Source: Catellatospora sp. IY07-71 (GTDB taxonomy: Bacteria; Actinomycetota; Actinomycetes; Mycobacteriales; Micromonosporaceae). From it: DNA of 64,000 bases. Each line of letters starts with the position of its first letter. The first letter of the stretch is position 1. The notes under the pieces were generated by a model that was not told the DNA's origin, made no database searches, and saw nothing but the letters and a program-made list of their open reading frames with translations. The DNA is taken from positions 4,993,501 through 5,057,500 of the forward strand of contig NZ_AP023360.1 in the NCBI RefSeq assembly GCF_018326265.1, read 5' to 3'. A program made the position numbers and the translations under genes. Of the stretch, positions 2,274-13,582 are shown one piece after another.

Positions 2274-2625
2274 TGGTCACACCCTTCGAGTCGTCGCGTG
2301 GCGGAGTGCTCGTCGGCCCGGCCTGAAGGAGCGTCGCTCCCACCGGATTACATCCGGGTTGTCCGGTCCTGCACCCTTCTAACGACGCACCCCCACGGGT
2401 CGCTCCACCCGCCGCGTCAGGTCACACCCGACAGCTCACCCGACCTGGCGACGACGCTGACCGAGGTCGCTGGAACGAGCGCACTGGTCTGCGGTTCGGG
2501 GTTCGAGTCCCCGGCAGCGCACCGCGAAAGCCCCGTCTCATCATCCGTGCGCGTCACGCAGTCTCGCCCAGCTGCCCCTCAAGCGGTCACACGGTGAAGA
2601 GGTCACCGGCCGCGGCAGACCTGAG
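2274..2625. other. Intergenic region upstream of the PBP gene
   Basis: About 350 bases without a convincing gene. It should hold the promoter of the PBP gene. Its only notable content is a tRNA-like T-arm with a 3' acceptor-like strand near 2454-2520, annotated separately. Confidence 0.5.
2454..2520 (+). pseudogene. Possible degenerate tRNA (T-arm plus acceptor, anticodon arm incomplete)
   Basis: A perfect 5-bp T-stem (CGGGG / CCCCG, 2497-2513) encloses the canonical 7-base loop TTCGAGT. It is followed by GCAGCGC and A-C-C, as in a tRNA 3' end. CGCTG at 2455-2459 can pair with CAGCG at 2515-2519 as a partial acceptor stem, and CTGGAACGAGCGC resembles a D-loop. The whole is only 67 nt and a normal anticodon arm with U33 cannot be drawn. 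It therefore looks like a tRNA with an internal deletion or an attachment-site remnant. A chance resemblance is possible. Confidence 0.35.
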
Positions 2626-3867
2626 TCAATCGACCGCGATGCGCAGGCCACGCACCGGCGAGGCGATGACGAGGGCGAGGCTGAGCACGACGGGCACAGC
2701 CAGCATCAGGTACGTGACCCGGACCCCGTAGGCGTCGGCGGCCAGGCCGCCGATCACGGCGCCGAACGGAGTGCCGCCCCAGGCCAGCATGCGCCCGGTG
2801 GTGTTGACGCGGCCCTGGAGCGCATCGGGTGTGAGCAGCTGTCGCACAGTGATGCCGTTGGCGTTCACGGTCAGGCGCGCCACGGCCCAGATCGCCCACC
2901 CGGTCAACGCCGACGTGAAGGCCGACGTGCCGGCCAATCCGATGAGGGCCGCGCCGAAGATGATGAGCCCGGTGATGGACACCGTTCCCTGGCCGGCCCA
3001 CCGGCTGGCTTGGGGCAGGATGACGGCGGCGACCAGCGATCCGACCGCGGCGGCAGCGTAGAGCAGGCCCAGCCGTTGGTCTTCGGGCCCGATGTCGAGA
3101 GCCCGGTCGGCGTGTACGACGAGCAGACCCAGCGCGCCGCCGGCGGCCACGTTCAGGCCGAAGCCCGCAGCGGTCAGCGTACGCAGGACCGGTGTTCGCC
3201 AGAGGTGGCGCACCCCTTCGGCGATCTCGGCCCGCAGCCGGCGGGCCACCGCCGGCCCTGGGTCCAACCCGGTTCGTATCTGGGCGAGCAGCGCCGCGGA
3301 CACCAGATAGGTGGCAGCGTCGACGGCCAGTACCAGAGTGGGGTCGGTGATCGCGGCCAGCAGGCCGGCAGTGGCGGGCGCGGCGATCTCCAGCACGATC
3401 TCGGTGGACCAGATCAGGCTGTTCGCCCGGGTGATCCCCGGCTTGCCGACGATGCTGACAAAGGCACCCCAGGCTGCGGCGTCGAACCAGCAGAAGCCGC
3501 AGCCCACGCCGAACGCCACGATGAGCAGGTGCCAGGTGGTCAGCGCATCGAACAGCGCGGCGACCGGTACGGTGGCGAGCAGGAGAGCGCAGCATACGTC
3601 AGCGGTGATCATCATGTGCTTGCGCCGCAGACGGTCCGCGGCGGCACCGGCGAAGAGCCCGAACAGCAGGTACGGCAGGGCTTCGAGGCCGAGCACCGCC
3701 GCGGTCAGCGTGGGGGAGCCGCTCGTCCGGTAGGCCAGCAGCGGCAGGGCGACGGCGCTGGCAGCGGTCCCCGCGACCGAGATCGATCGGGCGAGGTACC
3801 AGTAGGAGAAGTCACGGTGGAACAGCCGGCGTCCGTTGACGCCGGCTGCCTCGATGTGCTGCCTCAC
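2626..3867 (-). CDS. MFS transporter, third gene of the YcaO operon
   Basis: A 413-residue polytopic protein of the major facilitator superfamily, resembling the MFS_3 (drug or siderophore exporter) type. About 12 hydrophobic segments are visible, with the loop 2-3 motif GAAADRLRRKHMM (the GxxxDRxxRR-like signature) near residues 73-86. It starts eight bases after the stop of the small repeat-peptide gene and is transcribed with it and the YcaO gene. Its likely job is export of the modified peptide or immunity to it. That role comes from context; the substrate cannot be read from the sequence. Confidence 0.85.
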   Translation of the reverse strand: MRQHIEAAGVNGRRLFHRDFSYWYLARSISVAGTAASAVALPLLAYRTSGSPTLTAAVLGLEALPYLLFGLFAGAAADRLRRKHMMITADVCCALLLATVPVAALFDALTTWHLLIVAFGVGCGFCWFDAAAWGAFVSIVGKPGITRANSLIWSTEIVLEIAAPATAGLLAAITDPTLVLAVDAATYLVSAALLAQIRTGLDPGPAVARRLRAEIAEGVRHLWRTPVLRTLTAAGFGLNVAAGGALGLLVVHADRALDIGPEDQRLGLLYAAAAVGSLVAAVILPQASRWAGQGTVSITGLIIFGAALIGLAGTSAFTSALTGWAIWAVARLTVNANGITVRQLLTPDALQGRVNTTGRMLAWGGTPFGAVIGGLAADAYGVRVTYLMLAVPVVLSLALVIASPVRGLRIAVD

Positions 3868-3875
3868 CGCCTGCT

Positions 3876-4157
3876 TCAGGCGAGCACGGCGAGTTGCCGG
3901 TAGTCGATGCTGGCCAGCGCGAGGTGCAGGTCGGCCGCCAGATCGTCGGCGAGGTGGGTCATCGACGCACTGCCGTCGTCACTCGGGTGGAAGCAAGCGG
4001 CGCCGCCGCCACCGGGCTGGGAGTGGCGAGCCGTCGGCTTGTTGTCGTCCCCGGGGTGGAAGCACAGGGTGCCGCCACCACCGCCAGGCGGGGAGAGACG
4101 AGCCATCGGCTCTTTACCCGCGCCACCGGGACGGAATGGAACGTCGCTAGTAGACAT
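3876..4157 (-). CDS. Candidate RiPP precursor peptide with repeated Gly-rich CFHP modules
   Basis: A 93-residue peptide, ATG at 4157, with GAGGGA as ribosome binding site and six bases between it and the YcaO stop. Two modules align: residues 19-38 (ARLSPPGGGGGTLCFHPGDD) and 43-61 (ARHSQPGGGGAACFHPSDD). A third, partial unit lies at residues 7-21 (PFRPGG...KEPMARL). The only cysteines are C32 and C55, both in CFHP. The last 28 residues (MTHLADDLAADL... to LAVLA) are acidic and leucine-rich, like a RiPP recognition sequence but at the C-terminus. YcaO enzymes modify peptide backbones, often at Cys/Ser/Thr, so this is the probable substrate. No database family was recognised; the precursor role is inference from layout. 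Confidence 0.7.
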   Translation of the reverse strand: MSTSDVPFRPGGAGKEPMARLSPPGGGGGTLCFHPGDDNKPTARHSQPGGGGAACFHPSDDGSASMTHLADDLAADLHLALASIDYRQLAVLA

Positions 4158-4163
4158 GTTCCC

Positions 4164-5426
4164 TCATTTCGTGGTAACTGGACTCGGTCGGGTGATCATC
4201 GCCGGGCCTGGGGACGGCCACAGGGCCCAGCCCCGCCCAGTCGGGATGACGGGCACCCCGTGCCGCACCAGGCTGAAGCGCTCCAGTCCTGGGACGATCG
4301 TTGTGGCTACCGCGATCGACGAGCCGGCCGGCGCGACCTCGCACACGTGGTAGTCGATGCCGTGACGGGCCAGAGCCCGGCGGACCTGCTCCAGCCCCCA
4401 ATCCGGGCTGCCGTCACCGGCCATGTCCGCGCGTAGCGGCACCGCCCGCACCGGGCCGGACAGCAGTTCGTCGAGTGGCATCAGGGCACATCGTCGTAGC
4501 GCCTGCCAGGTCGCCAGACGGTCGACCGCAGGCGAGCCGCCGGCGGTCGAGGAGAGCGCGCAGACCTGGATCAGCTCGCCGAGGGCGCGCGACGCGGCGT
4601 CGGTGGCCCAGAGCGACGCGCCTGCCCCGAGCCGGGTCGGCTCGCCGCTGGCCGCTGGGCTGGCCGCCAGGTACACCGGCACATCCAGGTCGGTGGTGAC
4701 GTCGAGCAGGTGCACCGAGGCGCCGGCCGCCCGCACGGCCTCCGCGTGCAGCGCACGCAACTCGTCCGGCAGATCCTCGACGGGCACGAGGTCGACGTCC
4801 GGCACGCCCGCGATGTACCAGCGCAGCAGCGCCTGCCCGAGGCCGTCGTGTTCGATCAGCTCGCAGAGGCCGTGGTAGACGGCCTCTGCCAGGTCGACAC
4901 CTGCCGCAGTGCCCAGGCTGGACGAGTACCGCAGCAGACTGCGGTACGGTCGGACGTCGTCACCGGCGACCGGCCACCGGTAGTAGCGAGGGTCGGCGAG
5001 GAACGTGGGATAACGGACTCCGCCGTAAGGGGCACACGCCGCGACGGAGTTCGGAAATTCCGCTGCCCACCGCTGTATGACGAGGTCCCGCTCCAGGGCG
5101 GACTGCCCGGCTACGGCGCTCGCAGGCAGCAGCCTGGTGGCGTCTGCGGTCCATCGGCGGTTCTCCTGGGCGGACATGAGATAGCGTTCCAGGGCCTCGA
5201 AGTGCGCGCTCGCCGCGCCTTGGGGGCCCGCGCCTTTTCCCGCGCCGACGGCGACTGATCCTCCGTCCCGGAACAGCGTGACGCGCATGATCGGCGATGC
5301 GGTTGGGCCGAGGACCTCCGCCCGCGCCGTGAGGCCGAGCCGGCTGATCTCGGCCGAGGCTGTCGCGAGCGCGCTCTCGGCCGGCACTGATCGGAAGGGC
5401 ACTGCAGCCTTCCCGGAGGTGTTCAC
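4164..5426 (-). CDS. YcaO-domain protein (ATP-dependent peptide backbone modifying enzyme)
   Basis: A 420-residue stand-alone YcaO protein. ATP/Mg-binding signatures of the family are visible: SAHFEALERY (E77, E80, R81), EAVYHGLCELIEHD (E189, E192) and ALGELIQ (E284, Q287). Near the end is the conserved VPGLERF...GVPVIPTGRG segment. The C-terminus is RPSPVTTK, so the PxPxP tail typical of azoline-forming cyclodehydratases is absent. No E1-like partner, TfuA protein or dehydrogenase is adjacent. The reaction could be azoline formation, thioamidation or (macro)amidine formation and cannot be decided here. It is first in an operon with the repeat peptide and the MFS exporter. Confidence 0.9.
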   Translation of the reverse strand: MNTSGKAAVPFRSVPAESALATASAEISRLGLTARAEVLGPTASPIMRVTLFRDGGSVAVGAGKGAGPQGAASAHFEALERYLMSAQENRRWTADATRLLPASAVAGQSALERDLVIQRWAAEFPNSVAACAPYGGVRYPTFLADPRYYRWPVAGDDVRPYRSLLRYSSSLGTAAGVDLAEAVYHGLCELIEHDGLGQALLRWYIAGVPDVDLVPVEDLPDELRALHAEAVRAAGASVHLLDVTTDLDVPVYLAASPAASGEPTRLGAGASLWATDAASRALGELIQVCALSSTAGGSPAVDRLATWQALRRCALMPLDELLSGPVRAVPLRADMAGDGSPDWGLEQVRRALARHGIDYHVCEVAPAGSSIAVATTIVPGLERFSLVRHGVPVIPTGRGWALWPSPGPAMITRPSPVTTK

Positions 5427-5647
5427 CGGCCCAGACTGTTCCAGAGGCCTGCGTTGATGTCAACGGCTGGTAGCGGATCCGAAGCCGCACGACGTACCGC
5501 GGCCCGAGCCGGACCCGGCCGCCGAATCTGCGGCTTCGGCGGCCGACAGCCCGTTCTGGTGACCACGGCTAGTCCCGGGACATCGCCATCGGATTCCGAG
5601 GAGTGGCGCGAATCCGAGGTGACGAGGAGGACGGCGTTGCGACGGCG

Positions 5648-5878
5648 CTAGCGCAGTCGCGAACGCTGGAGCGCGCGTCCGCTACTTCCCGTCAGCCGCT
5701 CCCGGCGTCCGGACGATCGGTCGACGACGACCTCCACGCCGTGGAAACTCATGCGGTCGCCGGGGCGAAGGAACAAGGGCTGGTCCAGAGTCAGGGTATC
5801 GCAGCACATCTCGTCGGAGGAAACCACGCTGATCAACATCATGCGTGTGGCCGTGAACTCGTCAGCAAAGATGCTCAT
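5648..5878 (-). CDS. Small hypothetical protein
   Basis: A 76-residue protein whose ATG overlaps the stop of the upstream gene by four bases (ATGA), so the two are translationally coupled. The N-terminal half (MSIFADEFTATRMMLISVVS) is mixed hydrophobic and charged, followed by LRPGDRMSFHGVEVVV. The C-terminus is Arg-rich. I recognise no family. It lies 220 bases upstream of the YcaO gene on the same strand, so co-transcription with the peptide operon is possible but not shown. Confidence 0.55.
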   Translation of the reverse strand: MSIFADEFTATRMMLISVVSSDEMCCDTLTLDQPLFLRPGDRMSFHGVEVVVDRSSGRRERLTGSSGRALQRSRLR

Positions 5879-6201
5879 GACGCTTCCATCAGCGCCGCGT
5901 CAGCGAGGAATGCAGGCCCTGGCTGCGCCGGCCGCCAGCCGCCGCGCAGTGCCGCCCTGACGCAGGCGGCGACCTGCGCAGGACGGATCACGGCTGATGG
6001 AGATCCGATCCAGTTGTCGGGTCGGGCAGCATCGGTCGTGACGACCAGCACCGCGCCGTGCACGCCGGGGAGTTCGACGGCGAAGGTGAGCGGCGCGCCT
6101 ATGCCCTGGCTGCTGGAGGGCCGCTGCCGTACGAGCCAGCGGTACTCGACACCGTCCACCACGATGGGACGGCTTGCGTGTTGCGTCAGCGCCACGACCA
6201 C
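5875..6201 (-). CDS. Conserved-type hypothetical protein
   Basis: A 108-residue protein from GTG at 6201; a second GTG two codons on is better spaced from GGAG. The pattern VVDGVEYRWLVRQRPSS..., PLTFAVELPG, GAVLVVTTD, DNWIG and VRAALRGGWRPAQPGPAFL resembles a short family seen often in actinobacteria and myxobacteria as uncharacterised proteins; this is recollection of the pattern, not a search result. There is no signal peptide or membrane segment. It is coupled to the 76-residue gene downstream. Function unknown. Confidence 0.65.
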   Translation of the reverse strand: MVVALTQHASRPIVVDGVEYRWLVRQRPSSSQGIGAPLTFAVELPGVHGAVLVVTTDAARPDNWIGSPSAVIRPAQVAACVRAALRGGWRPAQPGPAFLADAALMEAS

Positions 6202-6301
6202 TCCGATCTCAGTCTCTCCGTGCCAGTGTCGCTGCCTGCAGTCCGGGGTGGAAGCGACTTTCGGCCGCGCTCAGCCGCTGGAAGCGCCCGCGCCGGTGGC
6301 G

Positions 6302-6757
6302 ATGTGCTCAGAGGGCAAGCGGGTCCTCGGCATCGGCGGCGCCGCGGTAGGTGGACACCATTTCAAGCTGATCTCCATCCACCCCCACAACACGCTCCCC
6401 GACGTCCTGCGGGGCGTCTCGGCGACGGTGGCGCCCGACGAGACCGGCTGCGGCCGCTTCGGTGCCTGGGTGTACGCGATCTGCAGCAACCCGATCGGGC
6501 AGCACGTCGTCTCGGCCGACAGCGTCGAATCGTCGATCAACAACGGTGTGAGCGTGGCGTGCCCGGCGGGGACGAAGGTGCACCGGGTCGGCGCGTTCAT
6601 CAACCTGGGCTTCGAGCCGTGGCGGCATCTGCACCTCAACCGGGTCGGCCTGTTCGGGCCCGGCGCGCTGTCCGGCGTCGACGTGGCCGCGCACGAGGAC
6701 CAGACCGGCTACGCCGACGACTGGCACGTGCACGCGTACGCGATCTGCGCGCCCTGA
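6302..6757 (+). pseudogene. 5'-truncated gene for a secreted two-repeat protein
   Basis: The frame encodes about 151 residues with two related repeats. Each begins C-x-x-G-(K/T)-x-V and ends near W-x-x-x-A-x-C: CSEGKRVLGIGGAAVGG ... AWVYAICS, then CPAGTKVHRVGAFI ... WHVHAYAICAP. This arrangement is typical of exported actinobacterial hypothetical proteins. No signal peptide or ribosome binding site precedes it; upstream the frame runs into DNA antisense to the 108-residue gene. The ATG at 6302 is merely the first in-frame ATG by the first repeat. I read it as a gene that lost its 5' end when the adjacent segment was inserted or rearranged. Confidence 0.55.
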
Positions 6758-6805
6758 GACCGGACCGCCGCCGAGCCCTGGCACGGTCCGGGCTGGTCCC
6801 GCCGT

Positions 6806-7540
6806 CTAGGGCATACGCTCGACGGCGACCGGGATCAGGCCCTGGCCGCGGGCCTCGGTGCGCAGGCGGAGCAGCAACGGGGCCAGGGCGGGCGTCGCCG
6901 GGTTGTCCGAGCGGTCGGTGGACAGGTCGACGGCCCAGGTCGCCTCGTCGCCGAGCTGACGGAGCGTCCAGGTCACCGTCTGCCCGTCCAGGGTGCGGCG
7001 GGTGCGTCCCGCTATGCGATGTGCTGTGTCGTCCCCGCGGTCGAACGGCTGCATCCGCCAGCCGCTGCGCAGCGCCGCACGCCCGTGCTCGGGCAGCTCG
7101 CCGGCCAGCAGCACCCGGTAGACGCACCGCTCGGGGGTGGCCTGCGCGGGCACCAGGTGGGCGGGCGCGGAGGCGGGCAGCTCCAGCCGGTCGAGGAAGT
7201 GGCGGCGCAGCTCCGGTTCCGGCGGCAGCGCCGCACCGCACGCCGCCTGGTACGCCGCCTGTGCGCCCGCCCGGCCGACGGGTGTCACCCGGGCGCGCAG
7301 CCGGGCGTCGGTGCGCAGGCCTCGACTGAACGTGACGGCGCTCCACCAGGTGCCGCCGGCGGCCGTCCAACCCGCACTGTCCAGCGCGGACGTGGTGCCG
7401 TCGGGGCGCAGCACGAACTCTTCGAGGACGATGCCCTCGGGCGGGAGAGCGCGATCCCGGGCGCGGGCGTTGGCGTACACGAGGTAGTAGTCGAGCTGTG
7501 CGGCGACGTCGACGGCGGAAGGATGTCCAGCGCGGCTCAC
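6806..7540 (-). CDS. Hypothetical protein
   Basis: A 244-residue soluble protein from GTG at 7540. It is rich in Ala, Arg and Leu with many aromatic residues (GWTAAGGTWWSAVTFSRGLR; DATERCVYRVLL-like segments) and no signal peptide or membrane helix. I do not recognise a family. It is followed by the truncated secreted-protein gene on the opposite strand and preceded by the terminator of the beta-helix gene, so it is probably a single-gene unit. Confidence 0.7.
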   Translation of the reverse strand: MSRAGHPSAVDVAAQLDYYLVYANARARDRALPPEGIVLEEFVLRPDGTTSALDSAGWTAAGGTWWSAVTFSRGLRTDARLRARVTPVGRAGAQAAYQAACGAALPPEPELRRHFLDRLELPASAPAHLVPAQATPERCVYRVLLAGELPEHGRAALRSGWRMQPFDRGDDTAHRIAGRTRRTLDGQTVTWTLRQLGDEATWAVDLSTDRSDNPATPALAPLLLRLRTEARGQGLIPVAVERMP

Positions 7541-7648
7541 GCCCTTGATGATGTCGTCGAGGGGTCCGGCGACGCAGCTGACACGCCGTGAGCGGAGTGT
7601 CGGATATCGATGCCCGGCGTCGGCGATGGCCTATGTGCACCCTCGGTG

Positions 7649-7678
7649 ACGGGGGCCGCCGGACGTGGCGGCCCCCGT
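7649..7678 (-). terminator. Strong hairpin after the beta-helix gene
   Basis: A 12-bp perfect stem (ACGGGGGCCGCC / GGCGGCCCCCGT) with the 6-base loop GGACGT, starting 15 bases after the stop codon of the gene at 7693-9303. There is no T-tract, as is usual in high-GC actinobacteria. Confidence 0.75.
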
Positions 7679-7692
7679 GCTGCCAGGCGTTC

Positions 7693-9303
7693 TCAGCACC
7701 TGACGATCGTCGAGTTGCTGAGGGTGATGCTGATGGACAGGTTGTCGGCGCAGGGGTTCTCCACCACTCGGCTGTTCACCAGGGTGAAGTTGCGCAGGGT
7801 GATGTCGCGGTTGCCGGCGAACTCGGTGCGCTCGGCGAGCCGGACCTCGCCGCCGCCGCTGATCGTGCCGCCGTTGGCGGCGATGTTCACGTTGTAGCAG
7901 TTCTCGATCAGGATCGCGTTGTTGCCGGTGTTGGCGATGTCCACCCGGTCGATGGCGGCGCCGCCGCTCTCGGAGACGCAGAAGATGCCGCGGCCGCCGC
8001 CCCGGGCGCGCACGGTGCCGACCCGGATGTTGGTGCCGTAGCTGGAGCCGACGCGGCCGTTGCGGTTGGCCATCCGGAACGCCGCGTAGCCCGTGCCCGC
8101 CCCGGCGTTCTCGGCGTCGACGGTGCCGACCGTGGCGTTGATCGTCTGGTTGAGCAGCAGGCCGGACTCGCCGACGTTGCGGGCGGTCACGGTGCCGACG
8201 GTGAGGCCGTCGACGCCGTAGGTCTCCACGGCGTGCGAACTCGCGCCGGACACGTACACGTTGTCGATGCGCACGTTGCGGGTCCACTGGCTGGTGTCGC
8301 CGCGGTTGTCGATGCGCACGCCGAGCCCGGCGGACAGCCGCATGTCGATCTGGCCGAGCACGACGTCGGTGACGTTGCGCATGAAGATGCCGTACAGCGG
8401 CGTGCCGGTGAGGTTGAGGTGCTGGACCTCGACCTGGGTGGTGCCGCGGGAGTAGACGGGTGCCTGGTCGCCGGAGCCGGTCCCGGTGACGTTGATGGTG
8501 CCGCACACGTCGAGGGTGGTGTAGCTGGGCAGCGAGATGCGGGCGTTGGCGCTCATCGAGCCGGAGCCGCGTACCACCACGCGCTGCTTGCTGGTGCGCC
8601 CGGCGGAGAGGCTGTTGACCGCCGCCTGCACGGCCGCCCGCAGGTCGGTGCCGGTGTAGACGGTGCTGCCGCCGTTGCGGGCAGTCCACGTGGAGCCGCT
8701 GAGCACGGCCTCGGCGTTGTAGGAGCCGCTGCCGCAGCCCGTGCCGCCGCCGGACCCGAGCTTGACCAGCTGCCACTGCTGGTTGGCGCCGTCGAGGTCC
8801 TGGTACTGGGAGATCATCGCGCCGTCGGCGGTGGACCAGCCCCACAGGTCGAGCGCCTTACCGCTGTGCCGGTTGAGGAACCGGACGTAGCCGCCGGCCG
8901 AGTCGGCCAGGCCGAAGTGCTGGCGGGTGTTGCCGCTGACGGCGGTGTTCTGGACGAGCTGGACGCCGTCGTTGGCGTTGGGCAGTTCGAGCACCTTGCC
9001 GCTGTGCACGGACCGGATCTGGTAGTAGCCGCTGCCGACGTCGGTGAAGCGCCACTGCTGCACCGCGAGGTCGTTGCGGGTGTACTGGTTGATCGGAGCG
9101 CCGTCGGCGGTGGACCAGCCGTACAGGTCCATCGCCTTGCCGCTGTGCCGGTTGACGAACACGTAGGTCGCGCCGGTGTCGACGGTCGCCGCGTGCGCCG
9201 CCGGGCTCGACACGAGAAAGGCGGTGGCGGCGAGCGCCGCTGTGGCGAGGACGGCGAGCAGGGCACGCCGTCGGGGGCGTGGTGGCCTGCGCTCAGGCAG
9301 CAT
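7693..9303 (-). CDS. Secreted ricin-B lectin / right-handed beta-helix protein
   Basis: A 536-residue exported protein. The signal peptide (RRRALLAVLATAALAATAFL...AHA) ends near residue 38. Residues about 42-180 form a CBM13/ricin-type carbohydrate-binding domain: YVFVNRHSGKAMDLYGWS and RFLNRHSGKALDLWGWS repeats with QQW motifs (VQQWRF, NQQWQL). A short Gly-rich linker leads to about 340 residues of Asn/Val/Gly-rich short repeats typical of a parallel beta-helix, as in polysaccharide lyases and GH28-like hydrolases. Catalytic residues were not identified, so substrate and reaction remain open. A LacI-type palindrome lies about 75 bases upstream, suggesting sugar-controlled expression together with the enzymes near 52-61 kb. 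Confidence 0.85.
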   Translation of the reverse strand: MLPERRPPRPRRRALLAVLATAALAATAFLVSSPAAHAATVDTGATYVFVNRHSGKAMDLYGWSTADGAPINQYTRNDLAVQQWRFTDVGSGYYQIRSVHSGKVLELPNANDGVQLVQNTAVSGNTRQHFGLADSAGGYVRFLNRHSGKALDLWGWSTADGAMISQYQDLDGANQQWQLVKLGSGGGTGCGSGSYNAEAVLSGSTWTARNGGSTVYTGTDLRAAVQAAVNSLSAGRTSKQRVVVRGSGSMSANARISLPSYTTLDVCGTINVTGTGSGDQAPVYSRGTTQVEVQHLNLTGTPLYGIFMRNVTDVVLGQIDMRLSAGLGVRIDNRGDTSQWTRNVRIDNVYVSGASSHAVETYGVDGLTVGTVTARNVGESGLLLNQTINATVGTVDAENAGAGTGYAAFRMANRNGRVGSSYGTNIRVGTVRARGGGRGIFCVSESGGAAIDRVDIANTGNNAILIENCYNVNIAANGGTISGGGEVRLAERTEFAGNRDITLRNFTLVNSRVVENPCADNLSISITLSNSTIVRC

Positions 9304-9377
9304 GCGTTTCTCCTCCGTTGAGACCCGTGAAGGCGCCGCCCGGAGGCGAAGCTGCCGGCTTCGCCGACGCCAGTGAT

Positions 9378-9391
9378 GGAAAGCGTTTTCC
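9378..9391. promoter_or_regulatory. LacI-family-like operator upstream of the beta-helix gene
   Basis: GGAAAGCGTTTTCC is a near-palindrome with the central CG of LacI-family operators, placed between the divergent genes at 9303 (-) and 9564 (+). It closely matches the sites at 52578 and 60837. No LacI regulator gene is present in the window. Confidence 0.6.
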
Positions 9392-9563
9392 GGATTGGAG
9401 GCTACGGTGGAGAGCTATGGCTGTCAATGCCAACCTTGTGTGCATCACCCCGGATGTCGTATACGGCCATCGCTCAGGCGCCGGTTCTCGCTGCACCGGC
9501 AAAGGCGGCGACGTGCACCTGCGGGGGATTTCGTAGATACCTGGCGGCTCCTAGGATCACGGG

Positions 9564-12521
9564 GTGGAGCACCTTTCGGAGGAGGCACCGCCGGACCCCC
9601 ACGTTCTGTTCGCCCGCGGGTTGCCACTCATCGACGACCCAGCCACACTGGACGACGGTCTGCGGCTGCTGCGGTCGGCGGTCGGCCGAACGCCGCACAA
9701 CGACCGGGCGCGGCCTTTCCGGTTGCTCAACCTCGGCGTCGCGGTCGACAACCGTTGGCAGCGTGACGGCGATCCGGCCGACCTCGACGAAGCCATCGAC
9801 CTGTACCGGCAGGCCGCTCCCGATGCCGGCGTACGCCGTGCTTGCCTGACCAACCTCTGCTACGCGCTGCGGATGCGATACCGCCTGACCGGCGCGAGGG
9901 CGGACCTGGATGCTGCAGTCGAGGCGGGCGCGGACTGCCTGGCCGCAGTGCCTGGCGACGACGATCGCCGGGCCGACCGGCTCGAACAGGCGGCGCATGC
10001 GCGCAGGGAGCGCTACGAAGTCACCCGCGACCTGGGTGACCTCCGAATCGCCCTGGACCTGTACCGGGAAGCCGTCGCGCTGACCACCTCACCCGGCGGC
10101 GGTGATCCGACTGGCCGTGCACTCGTGCACCTGCGCAACTACCATCTGGTCTCGCGTGAACACCACACGGCCACGGGGGATGAGCGCTCGGCGGCTACGG
10201 CGATCACGACGGCGCTGCGGCTGGCCGGGGATCCGCTCGGTGCCGGAGCGGTGCAGTGGGCCGCGCGCCGGCTGATAGACGGAGCTGAGCCGGACGGGCC
10301 CAGCCGGGCCGCGGCGGCGCTGCGTCGCGCGGCCGCGCTCGCCGAGGGCACCGATGCGACTACGCTACGACTCGATCTGGTCACCGCACTGCGGCGGCAC
10401 GCCGACCAGACCCGTCGGCCCGAAGATGCGGAGTCGGCGGTGTCCGCGGCATACGACGCCGTCGAACAGGCAGCCGCGGAAGACCGACCGGCGGCCCTTG
10501 GTGTGCTGGGAGCGGCGCAGCTGTGCCTTCACCAGCACACCGGTGCCATTGCCGACCTGGACGCGGCGATCGGCAATCTGCGCGAGGCCGACCGGACGCA
10601 GAAGGGCGCAGGTCCGGCCGGACCGGCCAACCTGTCCGTCGCGCTGCAGTGCCGGTACGAGTACTTCGAGGAACTCGCCGACCTAGACGAAGCGGTTGCG
10701 GCGAGCCGTCGCGCGGCAGCTCTCACCGGAGTGGACAGTGCCGACAGTGCGGGCTGCGCGATGAACCTCTCCCGTGTGTTGCGGTTCAGGTATGAGCGGT
10801 TCGGTCGTACCGAGGACATCGACGAAGCGATCGCGGTGCTGCATTCGGCAAGGACCGCAGTCGATCCCGGCAGCCCGCTGTCGGCCATGGCCGCGGCGAA
10901 TCTCGGGATCCTGCACCGCGTCCGGTTTCAGCGCCTACGCGAGCCGGCGGACATCGAGGAGGCCATCCGGTACACACGTTCCGCGCTGACGGCGTTCCGT
11001 GCGCGGCCGGGCGGGCCGGGCAGCGTCGGTAGCGAGCTGATCAACCTCGCGTTGGCGCTCACTGACAGCCATCGGTCCCTGGGACTGCCTGAGGCTTTGG
11101 ACGAAGCGGCGGAGGCGGCCGCGCAAGCTGTGCCGCTGCTTTCAGCAGCCGAGGCCGTTCTGCGTGGCAAAGCGGCCGTGCCGTTCGCCGAGCGCTTCCG
11201 GCGCGACGGCCGGGAATCGGACGCCCGGACGGCCATCGCTCATCTGGGCGAGATGGCCGCGCACCCGCTGGTGCAGCCCCATGATCGCGTAGACGCGGCG
11301 ATCATGTGGGGCCGCCTGGCAGAGGACCTGGGGGACCGGGAAGCGGCGTACGCCGGGTTCGCTCAGGCTGTGGAGATGCTGACCCGGCTGTCCTTCCTCG
11401 GCACGAGCCGCCGCGCCCGGCAGCGATCGCTCACCTTGGTCCGCGGGCTGGCCGGTGACGTCGGCGCCGCAGCCCTCGACATCGGCGAAGCGGCCACCGC
11501 GGTCGCCCGGCTCGAACAAGGTCGCGGTGTGATGTGGGCGCAGCAGCTGGAACTACGGAGCGATCTCACTCAGCTGGCCTCGCGCGATGCTGTCCTCGCA
11601 GCCCGGATGGAAGCGGTCGCCGTGTCCCTGGGCGCCGATCAGCTCGTGCATTCCCGACCGGAGCACGTGGGGCAGGACTGGTCTGAGACGCTTGGCCTGC
11701 TGGACGACGCCATGAGCGCGACCGGCGACGATGCTGCCGACCGCCGGGTCGCCCTGGCTCGCGCTGCTGTCGCGGCCGCTCCGCCCGATCTGCTGGCACA
11801 TGCCAGTGCCGTCTTGGAGCACCAGCTGTCGGGCCGCTATCTGGTTCGGCACGACCGTGCCGACCTGGACGCGGCGGTCGCCGCCGCCTCGACCGCGGTC
11901 AGGGCGGCTCCCGTCGGCGCAGTCGGCCGGTACTGGTCCTGGTACGGCCGCTCGCTGCTGCGCCGGTACGACGCCGACAGTGAGCGCGGCCGTGCGGACC
12001 CCTTGGACCTCGATTCGGCGATCCGCGCGTTGCAGCGCGCCGTGGCCGCCGGACGCAGCCCGCGGGAGAGGACCGATGACCTCGCCGGCCTCGCCAGGGC
12101 CTGGGAGCGGAAAGGCCAAGTGCAGGACGACGTCGCGACGCTCTCATCGGCCGTCGAGGCGTGGCGCGACGTGCTACGGCTCGGCCCGGGCTTCGCATCC
12201 GAGCGCGCCGAGTGGAGTTCGTCGCTGGCCCAGGCGCTGCTGCAGCGCTGCGACATCACCGGCGATCTCGCCGACCTTGACGACGCCATCGAGGCATGGG
12301 GCACCGCGACCGCCATCGGCGGCGACGACGATGATGTGGTCGAGTGGCACGTCTGGCTCACTGTGGCGCTGCGTGCACGCTGGCAGGCCCGTGGCGACCG
12401 CGCCGACCTCGACGCGGCGCTGGCGGCCGCCCGGCTGGCGGAAGCGTACGCGGCCGGGCTCGACCAGGAGACGCAGGACGTGGTTCGGGCGGCGCTGGAT
12501 GAGATACGCCGAGCCGCCTGA
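9564..12521 (+). CDS. Large TPR-type repeat protein without a catalytic domain
   Basis: A 985-residue protein from GTG at 9564, built of degenerate helical repeats. A recurring signature is (A/T)DLD(A/E)A(I/V) following RY/RW-type helices: DPADLDEAIDLYRQA, GARADLDAAVEAG, HTGAIADLDAAIGN, EELADLDEAVAAS, DRADLDAALAAA. Near residue 640 the stretch ARLEQGRGVMWAQQLELRSDL matches the segment that in actinobacterial CHAT-domain proteins lies just before the caspase-like CHAT domain. Here more TPR repeats follow and no CHAT His/Cys motif is seen. It is probably a protein-interaction scaffold. There are no membrane segments. Confidence 0.8.
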   Translation: MEHLSEEAPPDPHVLFARGLPLIDDPATLDDGLRLLRSAVGRTPHNDRARPFRLLNLGVAVDNRWQRDGDPADLDEAIDLYRQAAPDAGVRRACLTNLCYALRMRYRLTGARADLDAAVEAGADCLAAVPGDDDRRADRLEQAAHARRERYEVTRDLGDLRIALDLYREAVALTTSPGGGDPTGRALVHLRNYHLVSREHHTATGDERSAATAITTALRLAGDPLGAGAVQWAARRLIDGAEPDGPSRAAAALRRAAALAEGTDATTLRLDLVTALRRHADQTRRPEDAESAVSAAYDAVEQAAAEDRPAALGVLGAAQLCLHQHTGAIADLDAAIGNLREADRTQKGAGPAGPANLSVALQCRYEYFEELADLDEAVAASRRAAALTGVDSADSAGCAMNLSRVLRFRYERFGRTEDIDEAIAVLHSARTAVDPGSPLSAMAAANLGILHRVRFQRLREPADIEEAIRYTRSALTAFRARPGGPGSVGSELINLALALTDSHRSLGLPEALDEAAEAAAQAVPLLSAAEAVLRGKAAVPFAERFRRDGRESDARTAIAHLGEMAAHPLVQPHDRVDAAIMWGRLAEDLGDREAAYAGFAQAVEMLTRLSFLGTSRRARQRSLTLVRGLAGDVGAAALDIGEAATAVARLEQGRGVMWAQQLELRSDLTQLASRDAVLAARMEAVAVSLGADQLVHSRPEHVGQDWSETLGLLDDAMSATGDDAADRRVALARAAVAAAPPDLLAHASAVLEHQLSGRYLVRHDRADLDAAVAAASTAVRAAPVGAVGRYWSWYGRSLLRRYDADSERGRADPLDLDSAIRALQRAVAAGRSPRERTDDLAGLARAWERKGQVQDDVATLSSAVEAWRDVLRLGPGFASERAEWSSSLAQALLQRCDITGDLADLDDAIEAWGTATAIGGDDDDVVEWHVWLTVALRARWQARGDRADLDAALAAARLAEAYAAGLDQETQDVVRAALDEIRRAA

Positions 12522-12564
12522 AACGTCCCCGATCCCGCAGGACCGGCCGACGCGGTGCGTGGGC

Positions 12565-12714
12565 ATGACGGGACCGGACCGCGAACCCGAGATCACGCTG
12601 GTGCCCGCCAACGAGGCGACCTGGGGGCAGTTGCAGACCGTCTTCGGCGAGCGCGGCGACGCGGCCCGGTGCCGGTGCCGGCGGACCAAGCTCGGCGACG
12701 TGCAGTGTCCGTGA
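12565..12714 (+). pseudogene. N-terminal fragment of a GNAT-type acetyltransferase
   Basis: A 49-residue frame (MTGPDREPEITLVPAN... to DVQCP) resembles the beginning of actinobacterial GNAT proteins: WGQLQTVFGERGDAARCRCRRTKLG parallels the usual ..W..L..VFG.RGD...C.C...KL. The acetyl-CoA-binding part is missing. The following sequence is intergenic and then antisense to the methyltransferase gene. It is a decayed remnant or a chance frame. Confidence 0.5.
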
Positions 12715-12742
12715 AGATCCGCGCATCGCGCCGCGCACGAGG

Positions 12743-13582
12743 TCAGGCCGGCACGCTTACGAGCTGGGTCACCAGCGCGGGCAGCCTGAGTTCGATGACG
12801 TTCGCCGGGTCGTCGACCGCAGCGGCGTAGCTCTCCAGGAACATGGCGGCGGTGGCCGCCGGTGCCGCCTTCAGGCCGCGCAGGTGCGCGATGACGGTGC
12901 GGGCGGCGTCGAGGAACACCGCCCGGTGATCGCCTGCGGGCAGCTCCACCACCCGCTGCTCCCGGACGCAGCCCGTTCCGGCGGTGACGGCGTCGACGTC
13001 GGCACCGAGGCGGGCGCCGTACCGTGGCGCGAAGCCTCCCTGGATCAGCGCGCCCATCATCGCGGCCCGGGCGGCCATGCCGTCGGCCAGCGCCTGCGAG
13101 CGCGCCGTCAGGCCCGCCCGCGTCCAGTCGAACTCGGTGAACAGCGCCGTCCCGCCCGGCGCGGTCACGCGGAGCTGCTCGCGGATCGCTGCGCGCGGGT
13201 CACCGCACCAGGCCAGCACCGCCCGGCTGAAGGTGAGGGCGAACGAGCCGCCTGCCAGGGGCAGGTGCTCGGCCCGGCCGCGCACCTTACGAGCCGGGTC
13301 GGTGGCGCGGGCGGCCAGCAGCGGACCGCTGGCGTCGAGGACGTAATAGGCGACGCCGTGCGTGGTGCACAGGTCCTCGACGGTGGTGCCCGTGCCGGCG
13401 CCGACGTCCAGCAGCCGCACCGGCTGCTCGCTGGCGCGGACGGCGGCCAGGACCGGGGTCAGGTCGGCGGTCGTCACCGCGGCGAGTAGCTCGTCCATGC
13501 GCCGCAGGCGGCGGGCCTCGGCGTGGGTCCAGCCGGTGGGCGCGCCGGTGTAGAGGTTGCCGTCGCGGATCAGGCCGGGCAC
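12743..13582 (-). CDS. SAM-dependent methyltransferase
   Basis: A 279-residue class I methyltransferase. Motif I is VRLLDVGAGTGTTVEDL, the acidic end of strand 2 is YYVLDASGPLL, and then come RGRAEHLPLAGGSFALTFSRAVLAW (motif II region of ubiE-type enzymes) and VTAPGGTALFTEFDW. The GTG start at 13582 overlaps the end of the upstream gene by 13 bases (GTGCCCGGCCTGA) with GGAG seven bases before it, so translation is coupled. The substrate is unknown; a small-molecule acceptor is likely from the fold. Confidence 0.85.
   Translation of the reverse strand: MPGLIRDGNLYTGAPTGWTHAEARRLRRMDELLAAVTTADLTPVLAAVRASEQPVRLLDVGAGTGTTVEDLCTTHGVAYYVLDASGPLLAARATDPARKVRGRAEHLPLAGGSFALTFSRAVLAWCGDPRAAIREQLRVTAPGGTALFTEFDWTRAGLTARSQALADGMAARAAMMGALIQGGFAPRYGARLGADVDAVTAGTGCVREQRVVELPAGDHRAVFLDAARTVIAHLRGLKAAPAATAAMFLESYAAAVDDPANVIELRLPALVTQLVSVPA

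Follow-up and report, generated by a model that had tools for sequence, protein, structure and literature searches.

A three-gene cassette in the genome of Catellatospora sp. IY07-71 (Micromonosporaceae) very probably makes a YcaO-modified RiPP. We see about even chances for a more specific reading, namely a minimal pathway in which a stand-alone YcaO forms thiazolines at the repeated Cys of a small precursor, which is recognized through its C-terminus, cleaved into modules and exported by an MFS transporter. The cassette lies in a stretch of 64,000 nucleotides of contig NZ_AP023360.1 (positions 4,993,501 to 5,057,500), hereafter the window, and its parts are listed in table 1. The three tightly spaced same-strand open reading frames that a first-pass annotation had described were borne out, with gaps of 6 bases between YcaO and peptide (4158-4163) and 8 bases between peptide and MFS gene (3868-3875). 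Its reading of these genes as a minimal RiPP pathway likewise gained support, and we further observed a near-fixed peptide C-terminus, a varying number of repeats, a link to bottromycin and a divergent relative, locus L040.

Table 1. Parts of the cassette, in positions of the window.
Feature	Position	Strand	Description
YcaO, stand-alone, first cassette gene	4164-5426	minus	420 aa; PF02624, E=2.7e-32
Repeat peptide, presumed RiPP precursor	3876-4157	minus	93 aa; ATG preceded by TGAGGGAAC
Module 1, GGGGGTLCFHPGDD	4044-4085	minus	peptide residues 25-38
Module 2, GGGGAACFHPSDD	3975-4013	minus	peptide residues 49-61
C-terminal segment LADDLAADLHLALASIDYRQLAVLA, presumed recognition (follower) part	3879-3953	minus	peptide residues 69-93; nearly fixed at nine loci
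MFS transporter, presumed exporter	2626-3867	minus	413 aa; PF05977, E=6.1e-21

The first protein scores 112.8 bits against PF02624 (curated cut-off 25.7), which places it in the YcaO superfamily, and the 93-residue peptide matches no Pfam or NCBIfam model at E<=1. A scan for promoters and terminators returned no promoter-like site and one terminator-like site, no better than those of shuffled sequences.

The repeated Cys modules that had been noticed in the peptide are present as GGGGGTLCFHPGDD and GGGGAACFHPSDD, and shuffling the residues of the peptide 200,000 times never reproduced their two CFHP motifs. Counted as C[FHYR][HRPTN], there are two modules in the window and 4, 4, 3, 1, 3, 2, 5 and 2 in the homologous loci L031 to L038, respectively. 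They are spaced by 22-27 residues in the window and L031-L036, most of them being set off by an A-R-like spacer that is absent from L037 and L038 and almost absent from L040. The repeated residue is always Cys (32 motif Cys over ten precursors, L040 included). After the modules comes, at nine loci, a nearly fixed C-terminal segment formed by the last 21 residues or so, in which D, L, A, D, L, H, L, L, D, L, A and L are invariant. The structure model of the peptide (mean pLDDT 54) is disordered except for helices at residues 66-83 and 86-92. The precursor probably combines multiple cores at the N-terminus with a single segment for recognition at the C-terminus; the latter is the natural candidate because it stays constant while modules come and go. 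Pooled pN/pS values were 0.35 for the last 21 peptide codons and 0.19 for the six codons of the last CFHP module (eight loci each), to be compared with 0.33 for YcaO (four loci) and 0.30 for the MFS gene (seven loci); purifying selection acts on the peptide. These values, together with the homologous open reading frames found after YcaO in nine genomes, indicate that the peptide gene is no chance reading frame.

A search for YcaO across 354 Micromonosporaceae genomes (E<=1e-20) gave matches in 21: ten close ones (at least 73% identity to the window YcaO, whose own 100% is included), one intermediate (G342, 48% by tblastn and 50% in alignment) and ten at 31-38% identity. A peptide profile (E<=0.01) retrieved 12 of the 354 genomes, nine strongly (E<=1.6e-15) and three weakly (0.003-0.006), the strong ones coinciding exactly with the nine genomes in which the close YcaO is intact. 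As the profile was built from those same nine peptides, their own strong scores are expected, and the informative part is that no further genome joins them and that the peptide directly follows YcaO, its start falling 10-21 bases beyond where the YcaO alignment ends at every one of the nine intact close loci. The co-conservation of peptide and YcaO that had been proposed as a check was found, the pair being adjacent at all nine of these loci, with no other strong match in the 354 genomes. The weak matches (G235, G182 and G149) were dropped because no YcaO matched there at E<=1e-20. The tenth close genome, G189, carries a decayed cassette in which YcaO residues 1-274 are joined directly to the C-terminal ~65 residues of the MFS protein; the profile search found no peptide there. 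Next after the peptide comes the MFS gene, at eight of the nine close loci (not L038) and in L040. At L038, an array of 17 tRNA genes (bases 6182-7872) lies downstream of the YcaO-peptide pair, where the other loci have the MFS gene.

Within the genus, only the window genome has a close YcaO (1 of 11), and four others have weak matches at 31-38%. In wider samples, a YcaO profile (E<=1e-30) matched 16 of 397 genomes in the order, 5 of 394 in the class and 1 of 396 in the phylum, those outside the family showing 31-38% identity or less where compared; the peptide profile was searched in family genomes. The intermediate genome G342 holds L040, which has the same gene order and a 103-residue peptide with six C-R-[TN] motifs in place of C-F-H-P. 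Its modules share the Cys with those of the window but not the Phe-His-Pro, and its AGVNLCRTAG resembles the AGVNLCHHAA of L037 and L038. The YcaO tree places L040 next to the CFHP clade, and the ten group with a support of 100/96.

This distribution bears on the possibility that YcaO acts elsewhere and that the peptide is a small protein that stays unmodified or binds metal. A C-F-H-P motif brings a Cys and a His close together, and the MFS protein gives a below-cut-off match to the model of the siderophore exporter EntS (86.6 bits, cut-off 324). However, the modules of L040 contain no His, and peptide and YcaO co-occur strictly over the 354 genomes, so that we consider such a role improbable.

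The structure model of the window YcaO has the YcaO fold (mean pLDDT 87), with no separate recognition domain (RRE) apparent in its secondary structure, and Foldseek ranks M. jannaschii YcaO 6peu first, with LynD 4v1v also among the best matches. The matches further include 7u58 (E=3.4e-11), whose title describes an ATP-dependent peptidase activity of a YcaO. An enzyme of this kind, as reported for MusD (7u58), could itself release the modules, and the three genes of the cassette include no protease; the match to 7u58 is nevertheless not specific, since many other YcaOs match equally well or better, and we regard a peptidase as very unlikely. In a distant alignment to E. coli YcaO, and at positions that we take to be its ATP/Mg-site residues, seven residues are identical (E75, E78, E191, E199, E202, R286 and E290), whereas others are replaced in the window protein (K9 by R, S16 by A, N187 by V); on this comparison of sequences the presumed catalytic acids are conserved. 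Kinship with the ribosome-modifying E. coli YcaO was rejected, there being no match to the window YcaO at E<=1; the tree, in which the E. coli protein serves as the outgroup, gives no test of it.

The relatives of the window YcaO are stand-alone enzymes, most of which have a small peptide as neighbour, and they include the BtmF-position YcaO of a bottromycin cluster. Family placement had been suggested as a second check, and this grouping, apart from the E. coli enzyme and among mostly peptide-adjacent stand-alone YcaOs, does not refute the original reading. The bottromycin-type cluster (L044, ~4000-12700) belongs to a genome of the same family; its precursor matches NF033414 at E=6.2e-30, and its neighbours look radical-SAM-like and hydrolase-like by reading of their sequence. 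From gene order, we take its first and second YcaOs to be BtmE and BtmF, respectively. The second is the closest YcaO from a characterised pathway among those compared (31%, E=3e-36), whereas the first gives E=0.06 against the window YcaO. In the tree, L044, its first YcaO, the second YcaO of the window genome and L078 form long branches, and their placement is uncertain. The window genome (G000) has YcaO in two places ~560 kb apart, and the second (L082, near 5.5586 Mb) is only a distant relative of the cassette's. The cassette resembles bottromycin in its stand-alone YcaO and in what may be a core preceding a C-terminal recognition part. However, it has one YcaO where bottromycin has two, no radical-SAM gene was found among the nine flanking open reading frames scanned, and its peptide has repeated Cys modules, no Met-Gly start and no match to NF033414 at E<=1, the L044 precursor serving as positive control.

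More widely, YcaOs 28-38% identical to that of the window adjoin small open reading frames starting with Met-Gly, which were chosen on the basis of their start, ribosome site and GC pattern, in some cases from several candidates. At L041, L074 and L075, an open reading frame starting MGNSN[SP]NG precedes the related YcaO, and an MFS gene follows (tested with Pfam in L074, judged by likeness in L041 and L075), forming a parallel uncharacterised cassette. A conserved 44-residue MGLHDAIYR.. frame, without Cys and matching no known family, lies upstream of the related YcaO at seven of the eight loci L042, L043 and L045-L050 (L047 not among the seven). L071 and L072 have an MG.. frame bearing KLELSKxEQQVI, one Met-Gly kind each is found in L073, L076/L077 and L079, the adjacent peptide of L044 is the bottromycin precursor, and none was picked in L078 or L080. 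By eye, kinship between the window C-terminus and the presumed followers of these related peptides seemed likely, but it failed a shuffle test. The profile used was made from those followers, with the window clade left out and anchors set by hand. When each related peptide was left out in turn, 11 of the 12 reached p<0.05 (L041 not at the expected site), and bottromycin p=0.139. Seven of the ten window-clade precursors were tested against it, and all seven gave p values of 0.20-0.78; the best site fell within the C-terminal segment proper in L038 only. Near-fixed as it is, the window segment showed no sequence kinship with the related followers by this profile.

These comparisons bear on whether YcaO might form an amidine as BtmF does, with an amine attacking the activated amide and the Cys serving another purpose. 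The likeness to the BtmF-position YcaO of L044 favours an amidine, as does the adjacency of related YcaOs to peptides that start, like bottromycin's, with Met-Gly; judged by sequence, a YcaO nearer to the macroamidine-forming BtmF position (E=3e-36) than to the BtmE position (E=0.06) would also count against thiazolines. Yet none of the ten window-clade precursors starts with Met-Gly, and the residue conserved in the repeats is a Cys, internal to the peptide. We hold amidine formation to be unlikely.

The usual YcaO partners had been noted as missing nearby, and indeed no E1-like, TfuA or dehydrogenase domain occurs in the nine flanking open reading frames scanned (a scan that excluded the stretch 9304-13569), no E1-like/Ocin-ThiF partner belongs to the conserved cassette either, and TfuA (PF07812) has no match across the whole window genome. 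The cassette resembles SagD/TOMM azol(in)e pathways in joining a YcaO to a peptide containing Gly and Cys, but differs from them in having no E1-like partner or dehydrogenase in the flanking frames scanned and by a YcaO that scores 71.1 bits on the SagD model (cut-off 219.25). A YcaO and a small peptide are also found in YcaO-TfuA thioamide pathways; since TfuA is absent from the genome, thioamidation of that type is unlikely and was set aside. Thioamidation without TfuA has been proposed for archaeal and some bacterial YcaOs, and the window YcaO might carry it out on the peptide backbone: the modules are rich in Gly, the top Foldseek match is the M. jannaschii enzyme, and the model for McrA-glycine thioamidation is matched at 57.9 bits. 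That score, however, is far under the cut-off of 365, the genome has no TfuA, and across modules the Gly tract varies in length while the Cys is constant, which makes a thioamide very unlikely.

Thiazoline formation is the preferred chemistry because the Cys is common to all modules, TfuA is absent, no E1-like protein is found nearby and bottromycin offers a precedent. Stand-alone YcaOs are reported to form thiazoline or amidine without a partner in bottromycin (PMC5103208, PMC7136475), BtmF participating in macroamidine formation and BtmE being implied in thiazoline formation (PMC5103208). We infer that the peptide is the substrate of the window YcaO. The enzyme would bind it, probably via the near-fixed C-terminal helical segment. 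At each repeated Cys (x-C-[FHYR]), it would activate the preceding backbone amide with ATP for attack by the Cys thiol; ring closure would yield a thiazoline at each, spread over several N-terminal cores. Separating the modules would fall to a protease encoded outside the cassette, which may cut at the recurring A-R-like spacer, and exporting them to the MFS protein.

The edges of the cassette are sharp. DNA similarity between the window and L031-L036 starts 40-72 bases before the YcaO start and stops within 6 bases of the MFS stop, and the comparison lists no additional match of more than 60 bases for the window. The flanks of L033 are common to L031 and L032 and lie beside tRNA-Arg and tRNA-Ser. 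The 46 bases at window positions 2493-2538, next to the MFS end, are a copy (93%) of sequence that reaches into the 3' end of the tRNA-Lys(CTT) gene at 387 kb in the same genome; this copy looks like an attachment-site remnant. We infer that the cassette is transferred as a whole. A search for plasmid carriage gave two records, both below 60% identity and neither covering 80% of the query.

Stand-alone YcaO pathways are already known, from bottromycin and streptamidine. As PMC8442711 describes it, the streptamidine family of actinobacteria also pairs a small precursor with a stand-alone YcaO, its peptides are without Ser/Thr/Cys-rich regions, and most of its clusters include iron-transporter, hydrolase and dehydrogenase genes. 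The window cassette has none of these three genes. In the same paper, Russell et al. 2021 grouped peptides near actinobacterial stand-alone YcaOs (PMC8442711). The peptide strings of the cassette family had no match in the literature searched, nor did a three-gene pathway whose multi-core precursor carries a recognition part at its C-terminus; the supplements of PMC8442711, where the strings may figure, lay outside this search. Tentatively, the cassette could represent a new RiPP class, in which one BtmF-like YcaO, guided by one C-terminal helix, turns a variable number of N-terminal Cys modules into a series of thiazoline peptides. Such a class would be a branch of the uncharacterised Met-Gly clade, itself a possible source of N-terminal macroamidines, and in the window's branch the attacking N-terminal amine would have been exchanged for Cys.

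If our reading is right, these three genes, in ~2.8 kb, would be among the smallest complete YcaO pathways that could be expressed, with a repeat precursor yielding several products per gene. They would open to direct study how a YcaO picks its sites with neither an E1-like partner nor a separate recognition domain, and would allow asking whether one enzyme lineage shifted between amidine and thiazoline chemistry.
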